Below, one piece after another: positions 2,345-26,641 of a stretch of DNA of 32,145 nt. Position 1 is the stretch's first letter. Every line of letters starts with the position of its first letter. Made by a program: the position numbers and the translations under genes. The notes beneath the pieces are model-generated. The model was not told the origin of the DNA, searched no databases, and saw only the letters and a list, made by a program, of their open reading frames with translations. The DNA is taken from the NCBI GenBank assembly GCA_001776905.1, contig MFDM01000011.1, positions 69,747-101,891 of the forward strand, read 5' to 3'. This DNA is from Candidatus Daviesbacteria bacterium RIFCSPLOWO2_01_FULL_39_12. Its GTDB lineage: Bacteria; Patescibacteriota; Microgenomatia; Daviesbacterales; UBA10151.

Positions 2345-3406
2345 TTAACTGACTGCCACCTCCTTGGCTGTGATAATCAGTGGCGGTAGAATCTGTCCTG
2401 TCAGCTCTATCTGTAAAACATCAAATTTAAAATGGTCTTTTTCCAACTCCAATCTGTAAACTCCGTTTGGTAAAGGCGTGGCTCCGGAAAACTGACCCAA
2501 TTTATTGGTCTTTAAAGCCCTGACCGGCAAACCCTCTTTGTCATAGATGACCGCCACTACCCCATCCAGATAATTGCCCAATCTGTCAGAGGTGACTCCG
2601 TTAATCACATTAGGAAAAGTGGTTAAAGCCAGTTGCTGTTTTGGTTTTGGCACAGGAGCGACTTTAACTATCCTGGGGAGATTGGGTCCTTCGCTAATCA
2701 CCTTGCCTGTCTCAGCGTGAGTGATTATATCTAATTTACTTCTGATATCCGATGCTTGGGTGATTAGATTTTGCAGATCAGAGATGATTTTGTTGGCCTG
2801 ATGGGTATAATCTACAGGTACTGAGGACGGTTTGGCAGATGCGGACTTAATTTCTGCCAAGGCTTTCTCGGACTGGACGATTTTGAGCTTAAGAGCCTGT
2901 GCTTCTTTGGCCAACTCCACTGTTTTTTTTAATTCTTCGCCGGTGGGCAGATCAGCGGATGGGGGTTGGGGAGGAGGTGGAGTAAGATGGGTCAAGGAGG
3001 TGACATCTATGGCCGGCGGTGCAGCCGGCTGTTCTTCTGCCGCAGCCTGTTTTAAGCCCTGATAAAATATCAATAACCTGCTTTTAAAAAGAGGGTCATC
3101 ACGGTAAATTTTGCCATTTTTAATCCAGACTCTTTTGGTGGGAGAATAGATGGCCTTAAAAAAAGATTTCACCCAGGTGTCCAAAGGACGGCCTTTAAAA
3201 GGTAGGAAAGCAAAAGCCACTCCCAAAAGCACAAATACTAGCACTAAAGGCCAGCCAAAGATTGGGTAGTGCGGCACCACCACCAGAAAAATCAGATAAG
3301 CAGTACCCACCCCGGAAGCCAAGTAGATAAATTGTTTTAAAGTCATATCCCCCACCAGCTTAAACTGGAAGGTGGTGACATTTTGCGGGACAGGATGCGG
3401 TTCCAT
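2345..3406 (-). CDS. PrgI family T4SS membrane protein with prealbumin-like C-terminal domain
   Basis: 353 residues from the ATG at 3406. An in-frame TTG at 3463 would add 19 residues, but the MEPHPVPQNVTTFQFKLVG start is the classic PrgI N-terminus. Two membrane helices at about residues 27-75 are followed by LDTWVKSFFKAIYSPTKRVW, also typical of PrgI. The rest is unusual: a Pro-rich linker, a helical probable coiled coil (about 150-230), and an 85-residue C-terminal module (VNGVTSD-like start, YDKEGLPVRALKTNKLGQFS, LPNGVYRLELEK) resembling carboxypeptidase-regulatory/Cna-B beta-sandwich domains. PrgI-type proteins are the VirB3-like partner of VirB4, which is two genes downstream. Possible -10 boxes (TATATA near 3415-3420) precede the start; no good Shine-Dalgarno is visible. 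Confidence 0.85.
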   Translation of the reverse strand: MEPHPVPQNVTTFQFKLVGDMTLKQFIYLASGVGTAYLIFLVVVPHYPIFGWPLVLVFVLLGVAFAFLPFKGRPLDTWVKSFFKAIYSPTKRVWIKNGKIYRDDPLFKSRLLIFYQGLKQAAAEEQPAAPPAIDVTSLTHLTPPPPQPPSADLPTGEELKKTVELAKEAQALKLKIVQSEKALAEIKSASAKPSSVPVDYTHQANKIISDLQNLITQASDIRSKLDIITHAETGKVISEGPNLPRIVKVAPVPKPKQQLALTTFPNVINGVTSDRLGNYLDGVVAVIYDKEGLPVRALKTNKLGQFSGATPLPNGVYRLELEKDHFKFDVLQIELTGQILPPLIITAKEVAVS

Positions 3407-3485
3407 GCTAATCTTTATATACAACGTGAAAATACTATAGTCTAGAGATACAAAATAGATCAAAAAAGACTCAATATCTGGTATC

Positions 3486-3513
3486 TTGTAAATTAGGTGA
3501 GAATGAGTAAAAT
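3486..3513 (+). promoter_or_regulatory. Possible promoter of the riboswitch transcript
   Basis: TTGTAA (3486-3491), 16-nt spacer, TAAAAT (3508-3513). Transcription would begin near 3519-3521, at the very start of the riboswitch P1 helix. The -35 is a weak match, so this is tentative. Confidence 0.4.
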
Positions 3514-3516
3514 TAA

Positions 3517-3641
3517 AAATGTGGTGTCCTAATCTGAATATTAAGCAGATGAAAGGACAAATGGGAACTCTGTGTAATTCAGAGACTGTGCCGCAACTGT
3601 AAAGTCAGGAGACCGACCACATTTAAATCCCGTTGCAGGAG
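3517..3641 (+). promoter_or_regulatory. Compact cobalamin-riboswitch-like RNA
   Basis: The 5' leader of the downstream gene carries the conserved cobalamin aptamer blocks in order: GGGAA (3563-3567), a P4-like hairpin CTCTG/CAGAG (3568-3572 with 3580-3584), CCGCAACTGTAA (3591-3602) and the B12 box AGTCAGGAGACC (3603-3614). The outer helix P1 is a perfect 9-bp pair, AAATGTGGT (3517-3525) with ACCACATTT (3616-3624). Inside are GTCCT/AGGAC (3526-3530 with 3554-3558) and a hairpin ATCTG/CAGAT (3532-3536 with 3546-3550). The peripheral extension that normally separates CAACTGTAA from the B12 box is absent: they are directly joined. Downstream GTTGC (3632-3636) abuts the Shine-Dalgarno AGGAG (3637-3641) and can pair with GCAAC (3593-3597) in the aptamer, suggesting translational control. 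Confidence 0.85.
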
Positions 3642-3645
3642 AAAT

Positions 3646-4581
3646 ATGTCAAACGAGCGTGCTGAAATCACCCCATTTTTAGGTACCTGGAGAAATAAGA
3701 CAATATCCCAAGCAGCAGAAGAGTTAGCCTCATATTTACTAGAAACCAAAAGGATTCCTGATCCATATTATTTTTCCTTTGATGAGGATGGTGATCTGTT
3801 TTCTCCATCTGCCAGGTGCAAAGTAAAAGATGTCATCAGAACTGTAAATGTCATAGGCCAGCAAGAGGTTATAGCATTTGATGCTATAACTGGTTGGACA
3901 AAGTCTGCCAAATCAGGAGCGGCTGTCTGGTTTAGCCCCGCCAGTGAAGGAGTATACCCGGTTTCCAAGATAATTATCAGTGAGCTGGAAGAAAACAATG
4001 GAGTCAGGAGATTACGCAACAGAGCCATACTTTTGGATATAGATGCAGAAAAATGTTTAGAGTATGCAAGGCAAGTGTCTGGCTACTCTATCAATCGTCC
4101 GTTTTTGACCCATCTGGAACAGTTAAGAACGACCCCGATCATCCTTGGGACAGAAGGTAGTTGTTGGATCAATATATTTGAGGAAGTCATTGCTGATGAT
4201 GTTTTATGGGATTTAATTAAAACAGGGCAGGATATAGAGGAAAAAAGACAAGCTCTATGTCAGGCTCAGAGAATTTTTACATCCGCATTAACTGACGAGA
4301 CAGGTGTAAGATTGACGCAGGATGATATGGAGAGACGAGTTTTAAGTATGCTGGGTACAAGGAGCGGTAGTTGTCCTGTTCTATTTTTAAAAAGTATATT
4401 CCAAAGCATAGTTTCAGGTAGCGCTTTTGAAATTTTCTCTGCACATTCTCTGATGGTAGGATCTGATAAGTATGGCTCTTTGGAATTTGAATGTCCTAGG
4501 TGTAAAAGAACCAACAGAAGACCACACGGTCGGCTTATCCCAAATTGTCAGCACTGCGGCTCTTCAGAAGTTGGCTGTTGA
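3646..4581 (+). CDS. Unknown protein with C-terminal zinc ribbon, riboswitch-controlled
   Basis: I do not recognise the main body of this 311-residue protein. It has no signal peptide or membrane segment and reads as a soluble mixed alpha/beta protein. A motif region around residues 85-125 (AVWFSPASEGVYPVSKIIISEL, split here as AVWFSPASEG and VYPVSKIIIS) looks like a conserved core. The C-terminus is a four-Cys zinc ribbon: CPRC at 283-286 and CQHC at 301-304, plus a final Cys311. The start is well set: AGGAG ends four bases before ATG. The gene is alone behind a cobalamin-type riboswitch, so its level should respond to a corrinoid; a role in B12 uptake, handling or a B12-sparing function is conceivable but not shown. 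Its last 47 bp overlap the convergent CoA-synthesis gene. Confidence 0.85.
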   Translation: MSNERAEITPFLGTWRNKTISQAAEELASYLLETKRIPDPYYFSFDEDGDLFSPSARCKVKDVIRTVNVIGQQEVIAFDAITGWTKSAKSGAAVWFSPASEGVYPVSKIIISELEENNGVRRLRNRAILLDIDAEKCLEYARQVSGYSINRPFLTHLEQLRTTPIILGTEGSCWINIFEEVIADDVLWDLIKTGQDIEEKRQALCQAQRIFTSALTDETGVRLTQDDMERRVLSMLGTRSGSCPVLFLKSIFQSIVSGSAFEIFSAHSLMVGSDKYGSLEFECPRCKRTNRRPHGRLIPNCQHCGSSEVGC

Positions 4582-5572
4582 GGAGTCTGCAAAGATAATC
4601 TTTAATTTTGAGATCTACTTTAACTTCAACCAAACCCTTATTTGGTTGGCCATAATAGACTTTGGAGCCAAGTGGGGACAAGAGTATGGCCGGGATGGTG
4701 GCTAAATCTTCTTCGCCTTCAATTAGAATCAAGAATTTAGAATTATACACCCTTTCTTCGAAAGCAAGAATTAAGGGAACTTTTAAACCTTTCTCTACTG
4801 CCAAAATAAGGGCTTTGGAAATTTGGCCAGGAGGGTTTTTAAGTTTGATCACTCTACCGTCATTGCGAGGAAGGAGTGTAGCGACTGACGTGGCAATCTT
4901 TACTCTTTGCGCCTTTTCATCCACTACAGCCAGATTAGGAGTCAGCCCTGCTTTTAAAAAATTGGCTGTGGTAATATCTCCTACGGTGAGATAGGGGGTG
5001 TTGGGGTGGTAAGGGAGAGAGGAGAGAATTGGGCCTAGTGGTTTTTTAAGCTTGGTTCTGATAGTCTGATCTAGCTTTTTGCCGGCAATTTTTAACAGCA
5101 ACTTTTTGTAGCTTTTGCCCTCAGGGTTGACCTCACCTACTCTGATTCTGGATGAAGAAATGATCCGGCCTGTTTCATCCTTGATATAGGGGAAAATAAT
5201 AATGTCGAGTTTTTTTAAACCCAACTCGGCTCTTTTTTGATTAATCAGCTTAGCTACTCTCCCGGTGGCCCGGCTGACCATGATGGCCTCAATGGTGGGA
5301 TCTGTTAGGCTAGTGCCAAATTGATCTTCTATAAAAACAATCCCGCTTCTTTTTAAAAGTCCCCTTTCTTTTAAGAAGTTTTTCAAAGAATCCATCCTTC
5401 TCCTTTGATTTTGGGCAGATGGTTTAGAGCGCTTTTGATTAAACTGATCAGTGGTTATACCGATGGTGACAAATTTACCCAGTTGGAATGAGCAGGAAAT
5501 CATGGACAGATGACCAATGTGTAAAAGGTCAAAAGTGCCACCCAAAACAAGATGGTGGTATCGATAGCTCAT
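4535..5572 (-). CDS. Fused phosphopantetheine adenylyltransferase / GTP-dependent dephospho-CoA kinase
   Basis: Predicted bifunctional enzyme for the last two steps of coenzyme A synthesis: ATP + 4'-phosphopantetheine to dephospho-CoA, then GTP-dependent phosphorylation to CoA. Residues 1-160 are an archaeal/eukaryotic-type PPAT: GGTFDLLHIGH (11-21, with the nucleotide-binding HxGH) and ISSSRIR (138-144). Residues about 175-325 are the archaeal DUF359 kinase: VGD (197-199), VDEKAQR (217-223), KNPPGQIS (245-252), IEGEEDLATIP (284-294) and YYGQPNKG (307-313). In archaea these are normally separate genes. Residues about 226-238 are encoded by a palindromic repeat. The ATG at 5572 follows a perfect TATAAT by six bases, so the mRNA is likely leaderless. 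The 3' end overlaps the convergent zinc-ribbon gene by 47 bp. Confidence 0.88.
   Translation of the reverse strand: MSYRYHHLVLGGTFDLLHIGHLSMISCSFQLGKFVTIGITTDQFNQKRSKPSAQNQRRRMDSLKNFLKERGLLKRSGIVFIEDQFGTSLTDPTIEAIMVSRATGRVAKLINQKRAELGLKKLDIIIFPYIKDETGRIISSSRIRVGEVNPEGKSYKKLLLKIAGKKLDQTIRTKLKKPLGPILSSLPYHPNTPYLTVGDITTANFLKAGLTPNLAVVDEKAQRVKIATSVATLLPRNDGRVIKLKNPPGQISKALILAVEKGLKVPLILAFEERVYNSKFLILIEGEEDLATIPAILLSPLGSKVYYGQPNKGLVEVKVDLKIKDYLCRLLNSQLLKSRSADNLG
4859..4898. repeat. CATTGCGAGG-type interspersed palindromic repeat inside a gene
   Basis: The segment begins GTCATTGCGAGG and ends CGTGGCAATC, with imperfect terminal complementarity (ATTGC 4862-4866, GCAAT 4893-4897) and an AGCGAC core. 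It matches the widespread CATTGCGAGGAGCGAAGCGAC...GCAATC repeat family as I remember it. It is read in frame as about 13 residues (ATSVATLLPRND) of the dephospho-CoA kinase domain. Only one copy is seen in this window. Confidence 0.65.
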
Positions 5573-11585: not shown

Positions 11586-13418
11586 CTAAGGACCTTCTTT
11601 GGCTGATGCTGGTTTCTCAGGTATCGGTACTGCCTCACCTCCCGATCTCAATATTTCCATCGGAGACGGATATCGGCTTCTGATATAGACATCTCTGCCT
11701 GGACTATATTCCCACCTGCGCTCAGGTCTGAATACACCATAGGCCCCCCCGAAAGTTCTGCCGATGGCCCCGCCTCTTTCAGCCGCTTCCTCCCAGTATC
11801 TTTGCCCCCTTAAGTTGGCGCCTATTTCCTGACCAATCAGCTGTCCCGCCACTCCCACTCTGCCGATAGTCCGGCAGATAATTTCCGGTATGGCCGGGCT
11901 GGCCACCAATGCTCCAAAAGCCAGCAGGATTCTGATAAAAGATAAATCCAGACCGCCAAAAAGAGGTAGGACATTGGAACCTGTGATCTGAGTGCCTGTG
12001 GGAGAGACTATGTTAAACGGCGAGCCTGAAGTATCGGCCGAGCCCAGCAGATAGTTGACAAAATAAAAAACCGTCATCACCGCCGGGAAAGCCAGTACAT
12101 TACATAACATATTCAATATCCAATCCGTGGCAATGCTTTGTCGGCCGGGCATGGAGGCTGCCAGGAAATGGAAAGGCGCGGTCACCACCAGAAAAATGAT
12201 GCTTAAGAAATTATTGATCAGACGCAGGATCAATCTAAACATGGTATAAACTAAAACAACCATGGCCAGAAACCACAAAATTACGCCTAAGAAAGCCGAT
12301 GGATTACCAACTGCGAAGAGAGCGAGGGCTGTTGTGATGGCGGTGGAGATTATTGGACCGGCAACTGGTGTCAGATCATTCGTGCAAGCACTGAGCGTTC
12401 CCAGGCTAGCCACTGTGCCAACACCAGGTAGCGCAATATTTATCCCCAAGGCAGCCAAAGCACAGGCAATCACAGCCAGGAATTGTCCCGCAAACGGTCC
12501 GATCACCGAGCCGATAAAACCACCCAGAGCAGCCGAGAATCCTCTGATAAATAAAGCCGGCCAGAATGGCAGCTGGTAGATAAAATCTAAGCCTTTGGTG
12601 ATGGGATCTTTGCCAATGCCATTCATTAAACTGCCCATGATGGAAAAAACATTCTGCCCGGATGCAGCCTGCACTAAATTGGTGGGCGGAGGAGATGCTC
12701 CCGGTGGCGGGGCAGTTTGGGCCGCCACAAAATAGTAACCCATCACATTGGTGCCCACGAAAGCGATATCCACCAAAAGTGCCCCCAAAAAGTAGGAGAA
12801 GGTGATCAAAATCAGTCCGATCACCAAACCGGGGATGGCTGATTGGGCAGTCACCACTGTCTGGGGATTGATTCGTTGCCTAAACATCACCATCAGGCCA
12901 ATAATCACAAACACTAAAATCATGAAAAGATAAGAAATGTTTCTTGATACCTGCCAAAGCCTGACAATCGGATTTAAAATTAAATTACCCGATCCGCCCA
13001 CCTGGGCATGAGCCTCTCTGATTCCCAAATCCTCACCCAAGACTGCCAAATAATCGGCTGCTCTGATGGGAGGGTTGGTATATAATGCTCCTAAAAGCGA
13101 AGATTCGGCGCCCAGGATGCCATTGGAAAAATTGGTTTGGGACAAATAAGGGATGGATTTTATCCTGCCCTGGGCATCTTGGCTGATTTGATAAGTTAGA
13201 CAAGGTTGACCAATGGCAGAGCGGCCGGCTACTATACAGGAAGCAGTGTGGAACAGATTATGGACTAAAAGATCCGTATATAAGGGAGAGGTGGGGGAGA
13301 CTGTGGCCGGAATAGCACTACCGGTGGCAGGCAGGGTTTGAGCGGAAACAGCAGGTACAAGTAACAAGTAACTGGTAACAAGTAGAAAAACAACAATACT
13401 AATTTTTATGGCAGTCAT
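11586..13418 (-). CDS. TrbL/VirB6-like polytopic T4SS channel protein
   Basis: 610 residues with a signal peptide (hydrophobic stretch ISIVVFLLVTSYLLLV, cut near VSAQ) and about seven further hydrophobic helices, including LFMILVFVIIGLMVMF, VIGLILITFSYFLGALLVDI and WFLAMVVLVYTMFRLILRL. The polytopic layout with a hydrophilic C-terminal tail (from about residue 530, Arg/Gly-rich) resembles TrbL/VirB6 inner-membrane channel components, and the neighbours are pilin-like T4SS genes. A long periplasm-side segment between helices is Gly/Pro-rich (PPPGASPPPTN). A perfect TTGACA at 13447-13452 lies upstream, with a weak -10 (TATAGC) near the start codon, so a very short leader is likely. It converges on the giant gene with a six-base gap and no terminator hairpin that I can see. 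Confidence 0.75.
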   Translation of the reverse strand: MTAIKISIVVFLLVTSYLLLVPAVSAQTLPATGSAIPATVSPTSPLYTDLLVHNLFHTASCIVAGRSAIGQPCLTYQISQDAQGRIKSIPYLSQTNFSNGILGAESSLLGALYTNPPIRAADYLAVLGEDLGIREAHAQVGGSGNLILNPIVRLWQVSRNISYLFMILVFVIIGLMVMFRQRINPQTVVTAQSAIPGLVIGLILITFSYFLGALLVDIAFVGTNVMGYYFVAAQTAPPPGASPPPTNLVQAASGQNVFSIMGSLMNGIGKDPITKGLDFIYQLPFWPALFIRGFSAALGGFIGSVIGPFAGQFLAVIACALAALGINIALPGVGTVASLGTLSACTNDLTPVAGPIISTAITTALALFAVGNPSAFLGVILWFLAMVVLVYTMFRLILRLINNFLSIIFLVVTAPFHFLAASMPGRQSIATDWILNMLCNVLAFPAVMTVFYFVNYLLGSADTSGSPFNIVSPTGTQITGSNVLPLFGGLDLSFIRILLAFGALVASPAIPEIICRTIGRVGVAGQLIGQEIGANLRGQRYWEEAAERGGAIGRTFGGAYGVFRPERRWEYSPGRDVYIRSRYPSPMEILRSGGEAVPIPEKPASAKEGP

Positions 13419-13469
13419 GTGGCTATATGTTTAGCGTAGAACTTATTGTCAAAATTTTCAACCCTTAAC

Positions 13470-14051
13470 TTATGGAGGAAACAGTGTTCTTAAATTGAAT
13501 ATGGTCACATTGATGCCGGTAAAAACTGCAATCAGTTGTAACACCAGCCAGGCAATGGCCAAAAAGATCACTCCCAGTAAAGCCCAAGTGACAGTCTGGT
13601 GAGCCAAATGGACTGTCTTAGGTTCTCCTCCGGAGGTCAGATATTTAAATCCGGCCCAGGTTAAAAATACAAACAGGGCTATAAAGCCCAATCCCACTGC
13701 CACAAAAACTATGTTAATAAACAACTGCTCAAGCTGTACTATGCCGGCCGGATCAGACCCTACCTCAAAAGGTACGGCAGATGGTGGAGGAGGGGTGGAG
13801 GTTATACATTGAGCGGCGCAATTATCAACCTCCTTTTGGCACTCTCCGCAATAGTTGCCGTTAGGGTCATATACACAGTAGGTATGGCCGGTAGCGCACT
13901 GGTCACCGCCGCTGCATCTTTGATAAACACATTCACCGCAAGCCACTCCGGGCGTGCTGCACTGGGCAAAGATAGGGGTAGTCAGTAGTAAATAGAATGT
14001 AGAAAATAGCAAAACAAGCAGCAAGACTAGGATATACTTCATACTAACCAT
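13470..14051 (-). CDS. VirB2-like T4SS pilin paralogue 1, Cys-rich ectodomain
   Basis: 193 residues. The signal peptide (YILVLLLVLLFSTFYLLL, cut near IFAQ) is followed by a Cys-rich segment with eleven Cys over about residues 31-80, a short Pro linker (TPPPPSAV), and two membrane helices (about 103-135 and 150-175) joined by the family loop FKYLTSGGEPKTVHLAHQ. The two-helix core with a SGG[D/N]KE-type loop is the VirB2-like 'T4SS pilin' pattern seen in five other genes here. The ATG at 14051 is favoured: TTGACC (14083-14088), 18-nt spacer and TAAGTT (14059-14064) place transcription start at the codon. An in-frame ATG three codons later is the alternative. Subunit or ectodomain ligand is unknown. 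Confidence 0.75.
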   Translation of the reverse strand: MVSMKYILVLLLVLLFSTFYLLLTTPIFAQCSTPGVACGECVYQRCSGGDQCATGHTYCVYDPNGNYCGECQKEVDNCAAQCITSTPPPPSAVPFEVGSDPAGIVQLEQLFINIVFVAVGLGFIALFVFLTWAGFKYLTSGGEPKTVHLAHQTVTWALLGVIFLAIAWLVLQLIAVFTGINVTIFNLRTLFPP

Positions 14052-14058
14052 TACCTTT

Positions 14059-14088
14059 AACTTAACAGAAAATTACTATCAAGGTCAA
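14059..14088 (-). promoter_or_regulatory. Promoter of pilin paralogue 1 (leaderless)
   Basis: Minus strand: TTGACC (14083-14088), 18-nt spacer, TAAGTT (14059-14064), then seven bases to the ATG at 14051. The bases AAAGGTA lie between, too close to the codon for a normal Shine-Dalgarno. Confidence 0.5.
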
Positions 14089-14148
14089 CCGAGAGTGTGA
14101 TACATTTAACTGAGCGAAAGATTAACAGAGGAATATAAACTTTCCAGA

Positions 14149-14520
14149 TCAACCGGGAGCCGGAATATTAATCTGATTGAGATTGTTGAAGCCTAAGAAC
14201 TGAGCAGCTACCACCGCCAGGGCAAATGCCACAGCCAAAATAGCCAGCCCGATTAAGGCATTGAGGATTCTGCCTCTGGCTTTGCCGACTGCCTCTTTAT
14301 CTCCGCCTGATGTAATCCATTCATATGCTCCCCAAACCAGCATAAAAAGTACCACCAGTGCTGCAATAGCAAACAAAACTGTCAGGACATTGCCGATAAA
14401 TAGTCCCAAATTTTTATAACCTTGCTCCGGAGTAGCCACCGTAATGGTCTGTTGAGCAAAAACTCTACCTGAGGATAACAGGTATGCTGCTGTTGTGGAA
14501 AGTGCTGCTAACTTTTTCAT
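14149..14520 (-). CDS. VirB2-like T4SS pilin paralogue 2 (short, canonical)
   Basis: 123 residues from the ATG at 14520; an upstream in-frame ATG at 14544 would add eight residues but lies where the -10 element is expected. The product has a signal peptide (KKLAALSTTAAYLLSSGRVFA), a 25-residue spacer and the two-helix pilin core: VLTVLFAIAALVVLFMLVWG, loop AYEWITSGGDKEAVGKARGR, then ILNALIGLAILAVAFALAVV. It is the smallest paralogue with a signal peptide and the closest to a plain VirB2 pilin, so it is the best candidate for the main structural subunit. TTGACA (14555-14560), 17-nt spacer and TATCGT (14532-14537) form its promoter, with an expected leader of only about five bases. Confidence 0.8.
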   Translation of the reverse strand: MKKLAALSTTAAYLLSSGRVFAQQTITVATPEQGYKNLGLFIGNVLTVLFAIAALVVLFMLVWGAYEWITSGGDKEAVGKARGRILNALIGLAILAVAFALAVVAAQFLGFNNLNQINIPAPG

Positions 14521-14531
14521 GTTATATATAT

Positions 14532-14560
14532 ACGATATCCTCATTTTTTCCCCTTGTCAA
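14532..14560 (-). promoter_or_regulatory. Promoter of pilin paralogue 2
   Basis: Minus strand: perfect TTGACA (14555-14560), 17-nt spacer, TATCGT (14532-14537). Transcription would begin about five bases before the ATG at 14520, which also argues against the upstream ATG at 14544. Confidence 0.6.
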
Positions 14561-14583
14561 GACCCCATTTTGAGGCTAAATCT

Positions 14584-15846
14584 TTATGGGCAGACACCGG
14601 CACACACCGTAGTGCATTCAGGACGTATCACAGTAAACCTTGAGCCGTCCGTCAGACACTGTTGAACCAGAGCCTCACCAGCATCTGTATTACAACCCCC
14701 ACAAGCGCCTGTGCAGGCGTACTTCAATTCTCCGGGAGTACAGACAGTCTGCGGAGGTGATCCACCTCCTTCGCACTCCTCTCCGGTAATTTTAAAGCCG
14801 GTGAAGTTGGCCAATATATCAATCAGCGCAAAAGCTAAGGCAAAAAGCATCAGACCGATGATGGCATGAATGATTCTGCCCCTGGCACCGGCTATTTTTT
14901 CCTTGTCTCCGCCGGAGGTTAACCACTCAAATGCTCCCCAGACAATCATAAACACCAACACAATGCCGGCCACCCCGTAGACCAATTTAATTAAATTGGA
15001 TACAAATAAGGATATTCCGCAAGTACCGGTGGTATCCCCGGTAAACGGTCTCAGCTCGGGGGGAGCCTGGATCTTGCCGAAGATATTCTCGATCAATCCT
15101 CCGCCCGGCGGCAGACCCTGAAAGGGGCCGATATTAGAAAGGGTAGACACAGGAGTAGACACAGGGGTGGATACAGGAGTTGACACAGGAGTAGATACAG
15201 GGGTTACAGGAGGTGGAGCACAGGATCCGCATTGATAAAATCCTTCACAATTGGAGCTGCCCGATGCTTCACATCTGAATAGGGTGGTACTGGTAGCCCC
15301 TGCCGCACTGCAGGGACTTGTATCACAACTGTCAAGGGTGGTATTTCCACAGGTGGTGGTTTTAGGACAAGCGCCACAACTCGTAGCGCAGGTTGTGGGT
15401 GCGCAAGAACCGCACAAATATATTCCTTCACAATCATTATTTGCCGAAGCCCTACATGTATATGTTGTGCTGACAGTTGCTCCAGGAGCAGAACAAGGAC
15501 TTGTATCACAACTGTCATAAGTGTTATTTCCGCAGGTGGTTATTTTTGCACATAAATTACAATCTGTAGTGCAATTTGGTGTAGAGACGGAGCATGTTGT
15601 CGGAGCGGAACATTGAGAAGTGGTCCAGGCCCAGGTGTTTACCCCTGCCGGACACTGGCCGAATTCGGATGCCGTACAGGTGGAACCATCTGCCCATCCG
15701 CAGCCAGCCTCACCTGTACAGCTTGCGCAGTCGCTAAGGCCGCCACAGTGGCTGTAAGCATCAACAGGTGACGGGAAGAGGGCAAAGTAAAAAGTGAATA
15801 GTAAAAAAAACAAAGATAATGCTAAAAGTCCCTTGATACTAATCAT
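14584..15846 (-). CDS. VirB2-like pilin paralogue 3 with Cys-rich repeats and PVST linker
   Basis: 420 residues from the ATG at 15846, which gives a standard signal peptide (LLALSLFFLLFTFYFAL, cut near VDAY); a TTG 14 codons upstream is less likely. The ectodomain (about 30-205) is extremely Cys-rich and contains two near-identical modules of about 57 residues (TTCGN..DSCDTSPCSA..., ending YLCGSCAP or YQCGSCAP). A linker of five PVST repeats leads to the two-helix pilin core with loop FEWLTSGGDKEKIAGARGRI, and a second Cys-rich tail of about 50 residues follows. Extracellular disulfide-bonded adhesin or tip subunit is a reasonable inference. The upstream gene ends 46 bases before the start; a TATGCT about 12 bases before the ATG could serve as -10. 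Confidence 0.75.
   Translation of the reverse strand: MISIKGLLALSLFFLLFTFYFALFPSPVDAYSHCGGLSDCASCTGEAGCGWADGSTCTASEFGQCPAGVNTWAWTTSQCSAPTTCSVSTPNCTTDCNLCAKITTCGNNTYDSCDTSPCSAPGATVSTTYTCRASANNDCEGIYLCGSCAPTTCATSCGACPKTTTCGNTTLDSCDTSPCSAAGATSTTLFRCEASGSSNCEGFYQCGSCAPPPVTPVSTPVSTPVSTPVSTPVSTLSNIGPFQGLPPGGGLIENIFGKIQAPPELRPFTGDTTGTCGISLFVSNLIKLVYGVAGIVLVFMIVWGAFEWLTSGGDKEKIAGARGRIIHAIIGLMLFALAFALIDILANFTGFKITGEECEGGGSPPQTVCTPGELKYACTGACGGCNTDAGEALVQQCLTDGSRFTVIRPECTTVCAGVCP
15143..15202. repeat. Five 12-bp tandem repeats coding the PVST linker
   Basis: Five consecutive 12-bp units of the type GT(A/G/T)GA(C/T)ACAGG(A/G), each encoding four residues of the Pro/Val/Ser/Thr linker on the minus strand. 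Copy number could vary by slippage, changing the linker length. Confidence 0.85.
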
Positions 15847-15891
15847 TGTCTTACTGCTAGCATATACCACACCGTGTAAATTTTTCAATCA

Positions 15892-16215
15892 TTAAAAAGG
15901 AGTAAAGCCCGCTTTTGGCGGGAAAATCTCTGATGCAAATCTGGCCAGAGTATAGGCCAACAGCACCATCAACAGTCCGACTATGGCCCAAATAATTCTG
16001 GATCTGGCTTTGGCCAAATCCTCCTTATTGCCCCTGGCCATAATATATTGATAGGTGCCCCACACCAGCCAGTAAAAGGCCAAAAAAGCAGCTATAAAAA
16101 TGGCCACCTGATATAAAGCTGACAAAAATGAGGCCAAATTATTAAAAGTAGGTTTTAAATTAGTCGGCCCGGCAATATTGCCAAAACCGGGAATTTGGAT
16201 GAATAAGTTGTTCAT
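15892..16215 (-). CDS. VirB2-like T4SS pilin paralogue 4, no signal peptide
   Basis: 107 residues. Unlike its relatives it lacks a signal peptide: a 35-residue hydrophilic start (NNLFIQIPGFGNIAGPTNLK) is followed directly by the two-helix core (ALYQVAIFIAAFLAFYWLVW, loop YQYIMARGNKEDLAKARSRI, then IWAIVGLLMVLLAYTLARFA). The first helix could act as a signal anchor. Its ATG overlaps the stop of paralogue 5 (ATGA, 16212-16215), so the two are translationally coupled. It may be an inner-membrane or base subunit rather than an exported one; this is inference. Confidence 0.78.
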   Translation of the reverse strand: MNNLFIQIPGFGNIAGPTNLKPTFNNLASFLSALYQVAIFIAAFLAFYWLVWGTYQYIMARGNKEDLAKARSRIIWAIVGLLMVLLAYTLARFASEIFPPKAGFTPF

Positions 16216-17417
16216 TTTCCCAACTCTCTCAGTCCTAATATATCAACCCCGATAATTTGCAAAAGTAATACTGAGAATATCACAAACAGCAGTCCAATGA
16301 TGGCCTGGGTAAATCTATCTTTTCCGGCAGTTAATGTTTCCGGGTTACCGGCCGAGGTTAACATCTGAAATGCTCCCAAAAGCATCAGCAAAAATGCCAA
16401 GCCTCCTGATATGCCGATGACAAACTCCAACAGGGCTTTGACGAATTCATTGGGGTTGGTGGGAATACAGCCAATGGCAGTGTTAAAGCCGGGATTGGCC
16501 TCAGTTCCGCACTGGCTTCCTCCGGCTGAGACAGGAGAAACGGGAAGAGGAGTAGGAGTGGGACGCGGACCATATCTGCATCCTATGCCTCCTCCCCAGC
16601 AGTAATAATTGGAACATCCCTCAGTTCCATCTCTGCAATCATTATCACTTGCGCAAGTAATAGCATTCTTAGAGCAGAGGGTTGTAGAATCTACACATCT
16701 TCCTGGGGTCCGGCTTCCAATATATCCTAAGCAAACATAGTTTTCACACCCCGCTCCGGCTTGACACTCTTCAGCACTGGTGCAGGATAACAAAGAAGAT
16801 TGGCAGATGGGAGTTCCTTCTGTAACACATTCACACCGGTATGTTGTAGTAGTCCGTATTAAAGTAGGCAAATAGCCTGTATTACAATTATTCTCAGTCA
16901 ATTGATAACCGGCAGGACATTCACCTGGTAATGCCCTAGAGCCTTCTCTTTTGGTGTATGTGCAGGTATTAGTTCCGTTGTTTGTTGAAGAAATCCGCGG
17001 AGGATTACATGGATTAGTAGAGACGGTTGTAGATGGAGTAACATTATAACTCCTGCCTATTACGGGTACATCAGGACGACAGTTATCTGGTCCATTTGAT
17101 TCGAATGAGTCTGCTGTAGCTGTGGAAACAATCATTGTGTAAGAGCCAGCAGCTGTATAAGGACCTAGGGATTGATTTATTTCACCTGACCCATCTGCCG
17201 GAAAACAATATATATATTGATAAGCCGTATCACTAACATTTAGTTCTTCCCAATAATATAACCTACCTGTCTCTAAACCGGATACCTTAATCCCAATAAC
17301 TTGTCCTACTTGTATATCTGGAATTGGATCCGGATTAATGGATGCTGCATTAATAACTTTGGGGAACTGAAAGAGAAAAATTAAAAGTATTACTGCTGTT
17401 AAAATTATTTTGGACAT
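16212..17417 (-). CDS. VirB2-like pilin paralogue 5 with ectodomain shared with paralogue 6
   Basis: 401 residues: signal peptide (LTAVILLIFLFQFPKVINA), then a module starting INPDPIPDIQVGQVIGIKVS with GLETGRLYYWEE and ESNGPDNC motifs (about 25-130) that is clearly homologous to part of paralogue 6, then a Cys-rich region (about 135-285, some 25 Cys, with CxxxxxCxSxxxC spacing), a short Pro linker, and the two-helix core with loop FQMLTSAGNPETLTAGKDRF at the C-terminus. A TAAGTT lies seven bases before the ATG; the -35 TTGACT (about 17461-17466) is too far to pair with it. Predicted surface-exposed, disulfide-rich subunit. Confidence 0.75.
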   Translation of the reverse strand: MSKIILTAVILLIFLFQFPKVINAASINPDPIPDIQVGQVIGIKVSGLETGRLYYWEELNVSDTAYQYIYCFPADGSGEINQSLGPYTAAGSYTMIVSTATADSFESNGPDNCRPDVPVIGRSYNVTPSTTVSTNPCNPPRISSTNNGTNTCTYTKREGSRALPGECPAGYQLTENNCNTGYLPTLIRTTTTYRCECVTEGTPICQSSLLSCTSAEECQAGAGCENYVCLGYIGSRTPGRCVDSTTLCSKNAITCASDNDCRDGTEGCSNYYCWGGGIGCRYGPRPTPTPLPVSPVSAGGSQCGTEANPGFNTAIGCIPTNPNEFVKALLEFVIGISGGLAFLLMLLGAFQMLTSAGNPETLTAGKDRFTQAIIGLLFVIFSVLLLQIIGVDILGLRELGK

Positions 17418-26247: not shown

Positions 26248-26641
26248 TGGTGGAGATGGGGGGTTTTGCACCCCCGTCCAAAATTGGATCTAAAAAAACT
26301 TCTACAAGCTTAGTTTATGTATTTTTGAGTATTAACATTAACCCATAAACAGGAAGGTTAATACTTAATCCAAGTTTCTTGATTCCGATTATGGATTAGA
26401 TATCGCAACTGCATCCAGACTGGGTACATACCTCGGTAATCTAGCCTGGAAAAGATTATCCAAGATACCTTTAAGCGTAAACTACAGCAGGTTGTGCTGG
26501 AGAAAACGCTTCTCGCGCTAAAGCGAGAACGGAACGACCAAATTTATTGGCGTTTGTGTTTTGAAACAATATTTAACGTTTAATGTTTCCTTAACAGCTT
26601 GCAGTTTTTAAAGAGCAATCCTGTCGAGACTATACATCCCC
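26248..26641 (-). ncRNA. ssrA: tmRNA (transfer-messenger RNA)
   Basis: 394 nt, one piece. The 5' end GGGGATG pairs with the 3' CATCTCC, followed by an encoded ACCA. A T-arm GGGGG/CCCCC lies next to the acceptor (loop TGCAAAA, unlike the usual TTCRANT). The likely resume codon is GCC at 26551-26549, nucleotide 91 of the RNA, the same distance as in E. coli. The open frame from there begins ANKFGRSVLA, ends PAVVYA and stops at TAA (26473-26471), giving a 26-residue tag, longer than the common 10-15. The frame contains a TTCTCGC/GCGAGAA hairpin. SmpB is encoded nearby. The boundaries are firm; the tag frame is inferred. Confidence 0.9.

Follow-up and report, generated by a model that had tools for sequence, protein, structure and literature searches.

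The analysed stretch of DNA (32,145 nt, hereafter the window) most probably carries a compact cobalamin riboswitch that turns off translation of a gene, perhaps one for corrinoid supply, in a member of the Patescibacteria. CPR bacteria are thought to live on metabolites taken from others, and which ones and how are mostly unknown. Here, a single riboswitch reveals which gene is under corrinoid control and singles out one unannotated superfamily, which follows such a switch in roughly half of the searched relatives and offers a testable entry to CPR vitamin dependence. Our literature search, with subscription journals mostly outside its coverage, returned no paper linking cobalamin riboswitches with CPR or Patescibacteria.

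The window element is almost certainly a cobalamin riboswitch, as an earlier note made from the sequence had proposed. In an Rfam scan at gathering threshold, the covariance model RF00174 (Cobalamin) matched it at full model length with 55.4 bits (E 2.4e-11; cut-off 31.5 bits), and the RF00174 scan of its own genome (1.0 Mb, 34 contigs, 95% complete) gave this copy only. The blocks named in that note, GGGAA, CCGCAACTGTAA and the B12 box AGTCAGGAGACC, were found in the same order and at the same place (Table 1), and the element resembles the Rfam family in its core blocks, P4, L5, P6 and B12 box; it differs in dropping 71 positions between the P6 strands and in regulating an undescribed protein. 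Its predicted ligand is a corrinoid. MFE folding of the whole leader was no better than that of shuffled sequences (z -0.9), so thermodynamics alone would have missed the riboswitch.

Table 1. Features of the riboswitch locus (positions are those of the window).
Feature	Position	Strand	Basis or remark
PrgI family gene (type IV secretion-like), divergent neighbour	2345-3463	-	PF12666, E 7.5e-9
Sigma-70-like promoter, TTGTAA, 16 nt, TAAAAT	3486-3513	+	Pattern scan, 9 of 12 matches; just 5' of P1
Cobalamin riboswitch	3505-3635	+	RF00174, 55.4 bits; single copy in genome
P1 5' arm, AAATGTGGT (= AAAUGUGGU)	3517-3525	+	9-bp pairing with 3616-3624
GGGAA block	3563-3567	+	Sequence
P4 hairpin, CUCUG-UGUAAUU-CAGAG	3568-3584	+	98% of cells paired (3568-3572 with 3580-3584) in 41 homologues
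L5 loop, UGCCG, kissing half	3589-3593	+	Found in almost all homologues; can pair with L13 (3631-3637), UU bulged
Block CCGCAACTGTAA	3591-3602	+	Sequence
P6 closed on itself, CUG-UAAAGU-CAG, 2-nt insert	3597-3608	+	Middle pair covaries, 44/44
B12 box, AGTCAGGAGACC (= AGUCAGGAGACC)	3603-3614	+	Sequence; aligned in Rfam match
P1 3' arm, ACCACATTT (= ACCACAUUU)	3616-3624	+	9-bp pairing with 3517-3525
P13 hairpin carrying L13, UCC-CGUUGCA-GGA	3628-3640	+	Between P1 and start codon
Shine-Dalgarno AGGAG	3637-3641	+	Almost wholly within P13; 4 nt before ATG (3646)
Riboswitch-controlled ORF, 311 aa, uncharacterised family	3646-4581	+	C-terminal zinc ribbon C283, C286, C301, C304

The earlier note had named covarying homologues as a check, and compensatory changes were found in P4, P6 and P13. 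When the 3' partners of P4 were shuffled among sequences, 60% of cells were paired (maximum 66%), and four of the five P4 pairs each show 18-24 two-sided changes. In P6 the middle pair varies: 20 of the 44 scorable homologues have U-A, 17 have G-C and 7 have C-G, with no mismatch, while the P13 stems compensate across homologues as UUC/GAA, UCU/AGA, CCU/AGG and longer forms. P1 is mostly invariant among homologues and thus lends weak covariation support; its inner 5 bp were paired in 23/23 homologues, a tally that took in only those with a P1 of at least 5 bp and is biased towards pairing. The perfect 9-bp P1 described before does exist in the window, closing an aptamer of 108 nt from P1 to P1, but only its inner 5-6 pairs (GUGGU/ACCAC) are kept in relatives and the outer 3-4 are not. 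Against the L5-L13 pairing stand its 2-nt bulge and the near-invariance of L5, which cannot display covariation.

The riboswitch is very likely an OFF switch acting at translation, since its layout matches the arrangement in which L5-L13 pairing hides the Shine-Dalgarno sequence (PMC10653944). In other cobalamin switches, this L5-L13/P13 mechanism has been demonstrated by mutation; the documented partner of L13 is L5, and corrinoid binding stabilises the kissing loop between them and hides the ribosome-binding site (PMC10653944). In the window, L13 and L5 are complementary over five bp around a UU bulge, and in 42/45 homologues, versus 4.5% of shuffled sequences, a CG-N1-3-CA loop closed by 3 bp or more lies 3' of the aptamer, which points to an L5-L13 kissing loop feeding the expression platform. 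Corrinoid binding to the aptamer would stabilise this loop through the pairs U3589-A3637, G3590-C3636, C3591-G3635, C3592-G3632 and G3593-C3631, with U3633-U3634 bulged; the loop would hold P13 and, in turn, AGGAG would be hidden. The 311-aa protein would thus be made when corrinoid is scarce, and the gene would be off when B12 is plentiful. P13 alone is weak (MFE -3.9 kcal/mol, with UCC/GGA formed, not better than shuffles), as expected if the kissing interaction has to stabilise it. Another kissing loop, UGUAAU with UUGCA, was dropped because UGUAAUU forms loop L4 of P4 and L13 is documented to pair with L5.

The E. coli btuB translational switch follows the same OFF logic, its ribosome-binding-site hairpin being stabilised by L5-L13 kissing (PMC10653944), a logic that we infer for the window element. 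However, btuB encodes an outer-membrane B12 transporter, whereas the target here looks cytoplasmic and has a zinc ribbon and no known relative. Similar promoter hexamers, one TTGAxA-like and the other TA-rich and -10-like, stand upstream of the aptamer in most of the family members displayed, at roughly matching positions. In some relatives, T-runs precede the ORF, with clear terminator hairpins where inspected. In loci L051 (genome G053), L050 (G065) and L066 (G083), an intrinsic terminator-like hairpin with a T-run stands directly before the ATG, and this hairpin could both end transcription and mask the Shine-Dalgarno sequence.

The window has no extension separating CAACTGTAA from the B12 box, as the earlier note had observed, and there this absence was taken as a possible mark of a stripped-down or altered-specificity class. 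In the RF00174 alignment, one nucleotide replaces 71 model positions between the P6 strands. Across the 45 homologues with a parsable core, the insert that separates CAACNGU from the B12 box ranges from 0 to 99 nt, being 3 nt or less in 13 of them and 15-99 nt in the other 32, compared with 2 nt in the window. Because its length varies even within one genus (2 nt in G035, 94 nt in G036), the short form is a variation of the peripheral hairpin at P6, not a new minimal class, and what is missing is a variable insert. A new minimal aptamer class was rejected on the same grounds, the reduced architecture not being fixed in the lineage. A distinct minimal or altered-specificity class could draw on the missing P6 extension and on class IIa switches, which likewise lack P8-P12 and prefer MeCbl or HyCbl (PMC11260477); it is nevertheless very unlikely, given the range of insert lengths, a core and P13/L13 that stay unchanged whatever the insert length, and canonical core blocks scoring above the Rfam cut-off. 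Lack of P8-P12 is a mark of class II, and compact aptamers without P8-P12 have already been described (PMC11260477). The riboswitch RNA is thus canonical and compact, another example of an already known kind.

With its 2-nt insert, the window element lacks the P8-P12 extension that characterizes class I, agrees with class II in this respect, and appears to have a class II-like periphery without P7-P12. It shares the absence of P8-P12 and GGAA at J3/4 (3564-3567) with the class II switches env8HyCbl and M. tuberculosis ppe2, the latter a proposed class IIb variant (PMC11260477, PMC10653944); in these, L5-L13 kissing controls translation, which is predicted from sequence for the window element, while homologues of the latter, unlike class II, often carry an unconserved hairpin insert at P6. 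Class IIb combines GGAA at J3/4 with UCU at J6/3, and ppe2 is without UCU (PMC11260477), as is the window element between P6 and the P1 3' arm (3609-3615). GGAA fits class IIb but UCU is absent, so the ligand preference cannot be told from sequence. Methyl- or hydroxocobalamin in place of adenosylcobalamin, that is, class IIa behaviour, is a rather unlikely choice of ligand. The lack of the P8-P12 extension would agree with it, as class IIa prefers these two forms (PMC11260477), and sensing an imported un-adenosylated corrinoid would be sensible upstream of an adenosyltransferase; on the other hand, J3/4 is GGAA as in class IIb, the B12 box side is CAGGAGACC, and NrdJ, the sole B12 enzyme found, uses AdoCbl, points that do not settle selectivity. 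In several relatives the match falls below the Rfam cut-off or is lacking, as might be expected if the element were a non-functional remnant, either decayed or acquired horizontally. Such a remnant is extremely improbable in view of the compensatory changes in three helices and of the promoter, the Shine-Dalgarno masking and the linkage to one gene superfamily, all of which are conserved.

The genome is from the Patescibacteria (CPR), as the earlier note had suspected, and is Candidatus Daviesbacteria-like: the named relatives of the window protein come from Candidatus Daviesbacteria and other Patescibacteria group genomes. The note had also tied the regulation to a scavenged corrinoid in bacteria usually thought to lack B12 synthesis, and the searches fit: CobS, one marker of biosynthesis, was found in 0/57 genomes, while NrdJ and BtuR/CobO are present. 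NrdJ, a class II ribonucleotide reductase, is the only ribonucleotide reductase detected in the window's own genome; NrdB (PF00268) and NrdD (PF13597) were not found in this 95% complete genome, with positive controls detected. Its gene lies in a cluster nrdR-nrdJ-X-cobO together with an NrdR-like gene, an unknown 243-aa ORF and the gene for a BtuR/CobO adenosyltransferase. The 243-aa ORF (L113:10054-10782, +) has no Pfam match. The same genome contains no B12-binding domain PF02310 and neither DUF4430 nor DUF6580, i.e., no known-looking uptake parts. Because CobS is undetected while NrdJ and BtuR/CobO are present, the use of a scavenged corrinoid to feed NrdJ is well supported; on a plain reading, imported corrinoid is adenosylated and then used for DNA precursor synthesis, absences in a 95% complete genome not being proof. 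In relatives such as G023, G032, G065 and G082, the NrdJ matches are split into pieces within 1100-1700-aa open frames, which hints at inteins or large insertions.

Of the 95 relatives, 53 each have one and only one cobalamin riboswitch match, followed in nearly all by one long ORF. Most of the proteins preceded by the riboswitch link into one undescribed, fast-diverging superfamily, and it is this protein family that is new. BLASTP joined 41/52 of them, partly through exchanged zinc ribbons, and most of the superfamily carries C-terminal zinc ribbons. As an example of such exchange, the G009 protein shares 79% identity with the window protein over 38 residues near its end and shows no match in the rest. 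Profile comparisons by hhalign without the zinc ribbon still link several sub-families; being pairwise and uncalibrated, they serve only as support for one superfamily. The sub-family of the window protein comprises 11 aligned members with 30-42% identity to it and has 32 invariant columns, including W95, S97, P98, N125, R126, C243 and the four ribbon cysteines.

Searches of the window protein against Pfam, NCBIfam, PHROGs and PDB sequences gave only sub-threshold matches, mostly to zinc ribbons; neither these nor the fold search matched a transporter, B12-binding or adenosyltransferase family, and no signal peptide or membrane span was seen. Its AlphaFold2 model has a mean pLDDT of 62, with core residues 70-180 mostly at 70-90, and Foldseek against PDB and BFVD returned nothing at E 1e-3 or better, the weak hits being PAS-like; the fold was set aside as evidence. 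Homology of function with HypA was rejected, as the profile match (E 0.0017) covers mainly the zinc ribbon and the preceding stretch. A phage origin was also rejected: no relative occurs in viral contigs, and the PHROGs matches are weak and mostly of unknown function.

The switch stands head-to-head with a PrgI-like gene in 22/23 loci examined of the window's family. In 11 genomes (G048, G050, G061, G062, G065, G069, G074, G078, G082, G083 and G087), the riboswitch shares a strand with nrdJ and lies about 3 kb or less downstream of it, in most cases with a cobalamin adenosyltransferase gene in between (PF01923 or PF02572 in the mapped loci). Further along in G065 lies a gene for a TraG/VirD4-like ATPase, and proteins with similar ends follow in several others. 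A clear NrdJ co-occurs with the riboswitch in 51/53 genomes with the switch versus 30/42 without it (Fisher p 0.0009, ignoring phylogeny). Phylum-wide, at least 76/380 genomes have a cobalamin riboswitch match, and in other classes of Patescibacteria the switch is often followed by DUF4430 and DUF6580-like genes. Transcobalamins carry DUF4430 as their C-terminal domain (PMC4350170), and transcobalamin-like DUF4430 proteins with an ECF-like DUF6580 likewise lie behind a cobalamin riboswitch, some of them downstream of nrdJ and cobO; by contrast, both domains are absent from the window genome, and no sequence similarity to the 311-aa protein was found. In one Patescibacterium (L129:3414-4970, +), a riboswitch-preceded gene encodes a prenyltransferase-like toroid plus DUF4430, the domain plan of transcobalamin.

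On balance, the window protein is somewhat favoured to serve NrdJ by acquiring scavenged cobalamin or maintaining its homeostasis. Cobalamin riboswitches usually control uptake genes, the same switch precedes DUF4430 and DUF6580/ECF-like genes in other Patescibacteria, and the gene adjoins nrdJ and the adenosyltransferase in several lineages, all of which argue for this role. As no transporter or B12-binding homology, signal peptide or membrane span was detected, uptake is suggested by association only. A low-B12 response, in which the protein would spare, reactivate or adjust NrdJ or, as a zinc-ribbon protein, would regulate dNTP synthesis during adenosylcobalamin shortage, is distinctly less probable. 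The cytoplasmic look of the protein, its zinc ribbon with weak similarity to HypA, and the position of the gene after nrdR-nrdJ-adenosyltransferase in several families would fit such a response; yet no RNR-related or B12-binding domain was detected, the ribbons are exchanged between otherwise unlike proteins and may be mere modules, and in the window's own genome the gene lies away from nrdJ. It is also conceivable, though quite unlikely, that the superfamily is an undescribed Patescibacteria machinery which, turned on at cobalamin shortage, takes corrinoid from a host or neighbour together with the adjacent type IV secretion/pilus genes (the head-to-head PrgI gene in the window's family, a downstream VirD4/TraG-like ATPase gene in others), its fast-diverging bodies and exchanged ribbons reflecting partner-specific targets.

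Other features were also noted in the window. On the minus strand, a gene at 4535-5572 encodes a CoaD-like cytidylyltransferase fused to DUF359 (dephospho-CoA kinase family), otherwise archaeal-type CoA genes. A run of membrane proteins at 11586-17417 (-) resembles a type IV secretion or pilus-like cluster, with some cysteine-rich parts. Moreover, a tmRNA at 26248-26641 (-) has a long predicted tag peptide, ANKFGRSVLALAREAFSPAQPAVVYA.
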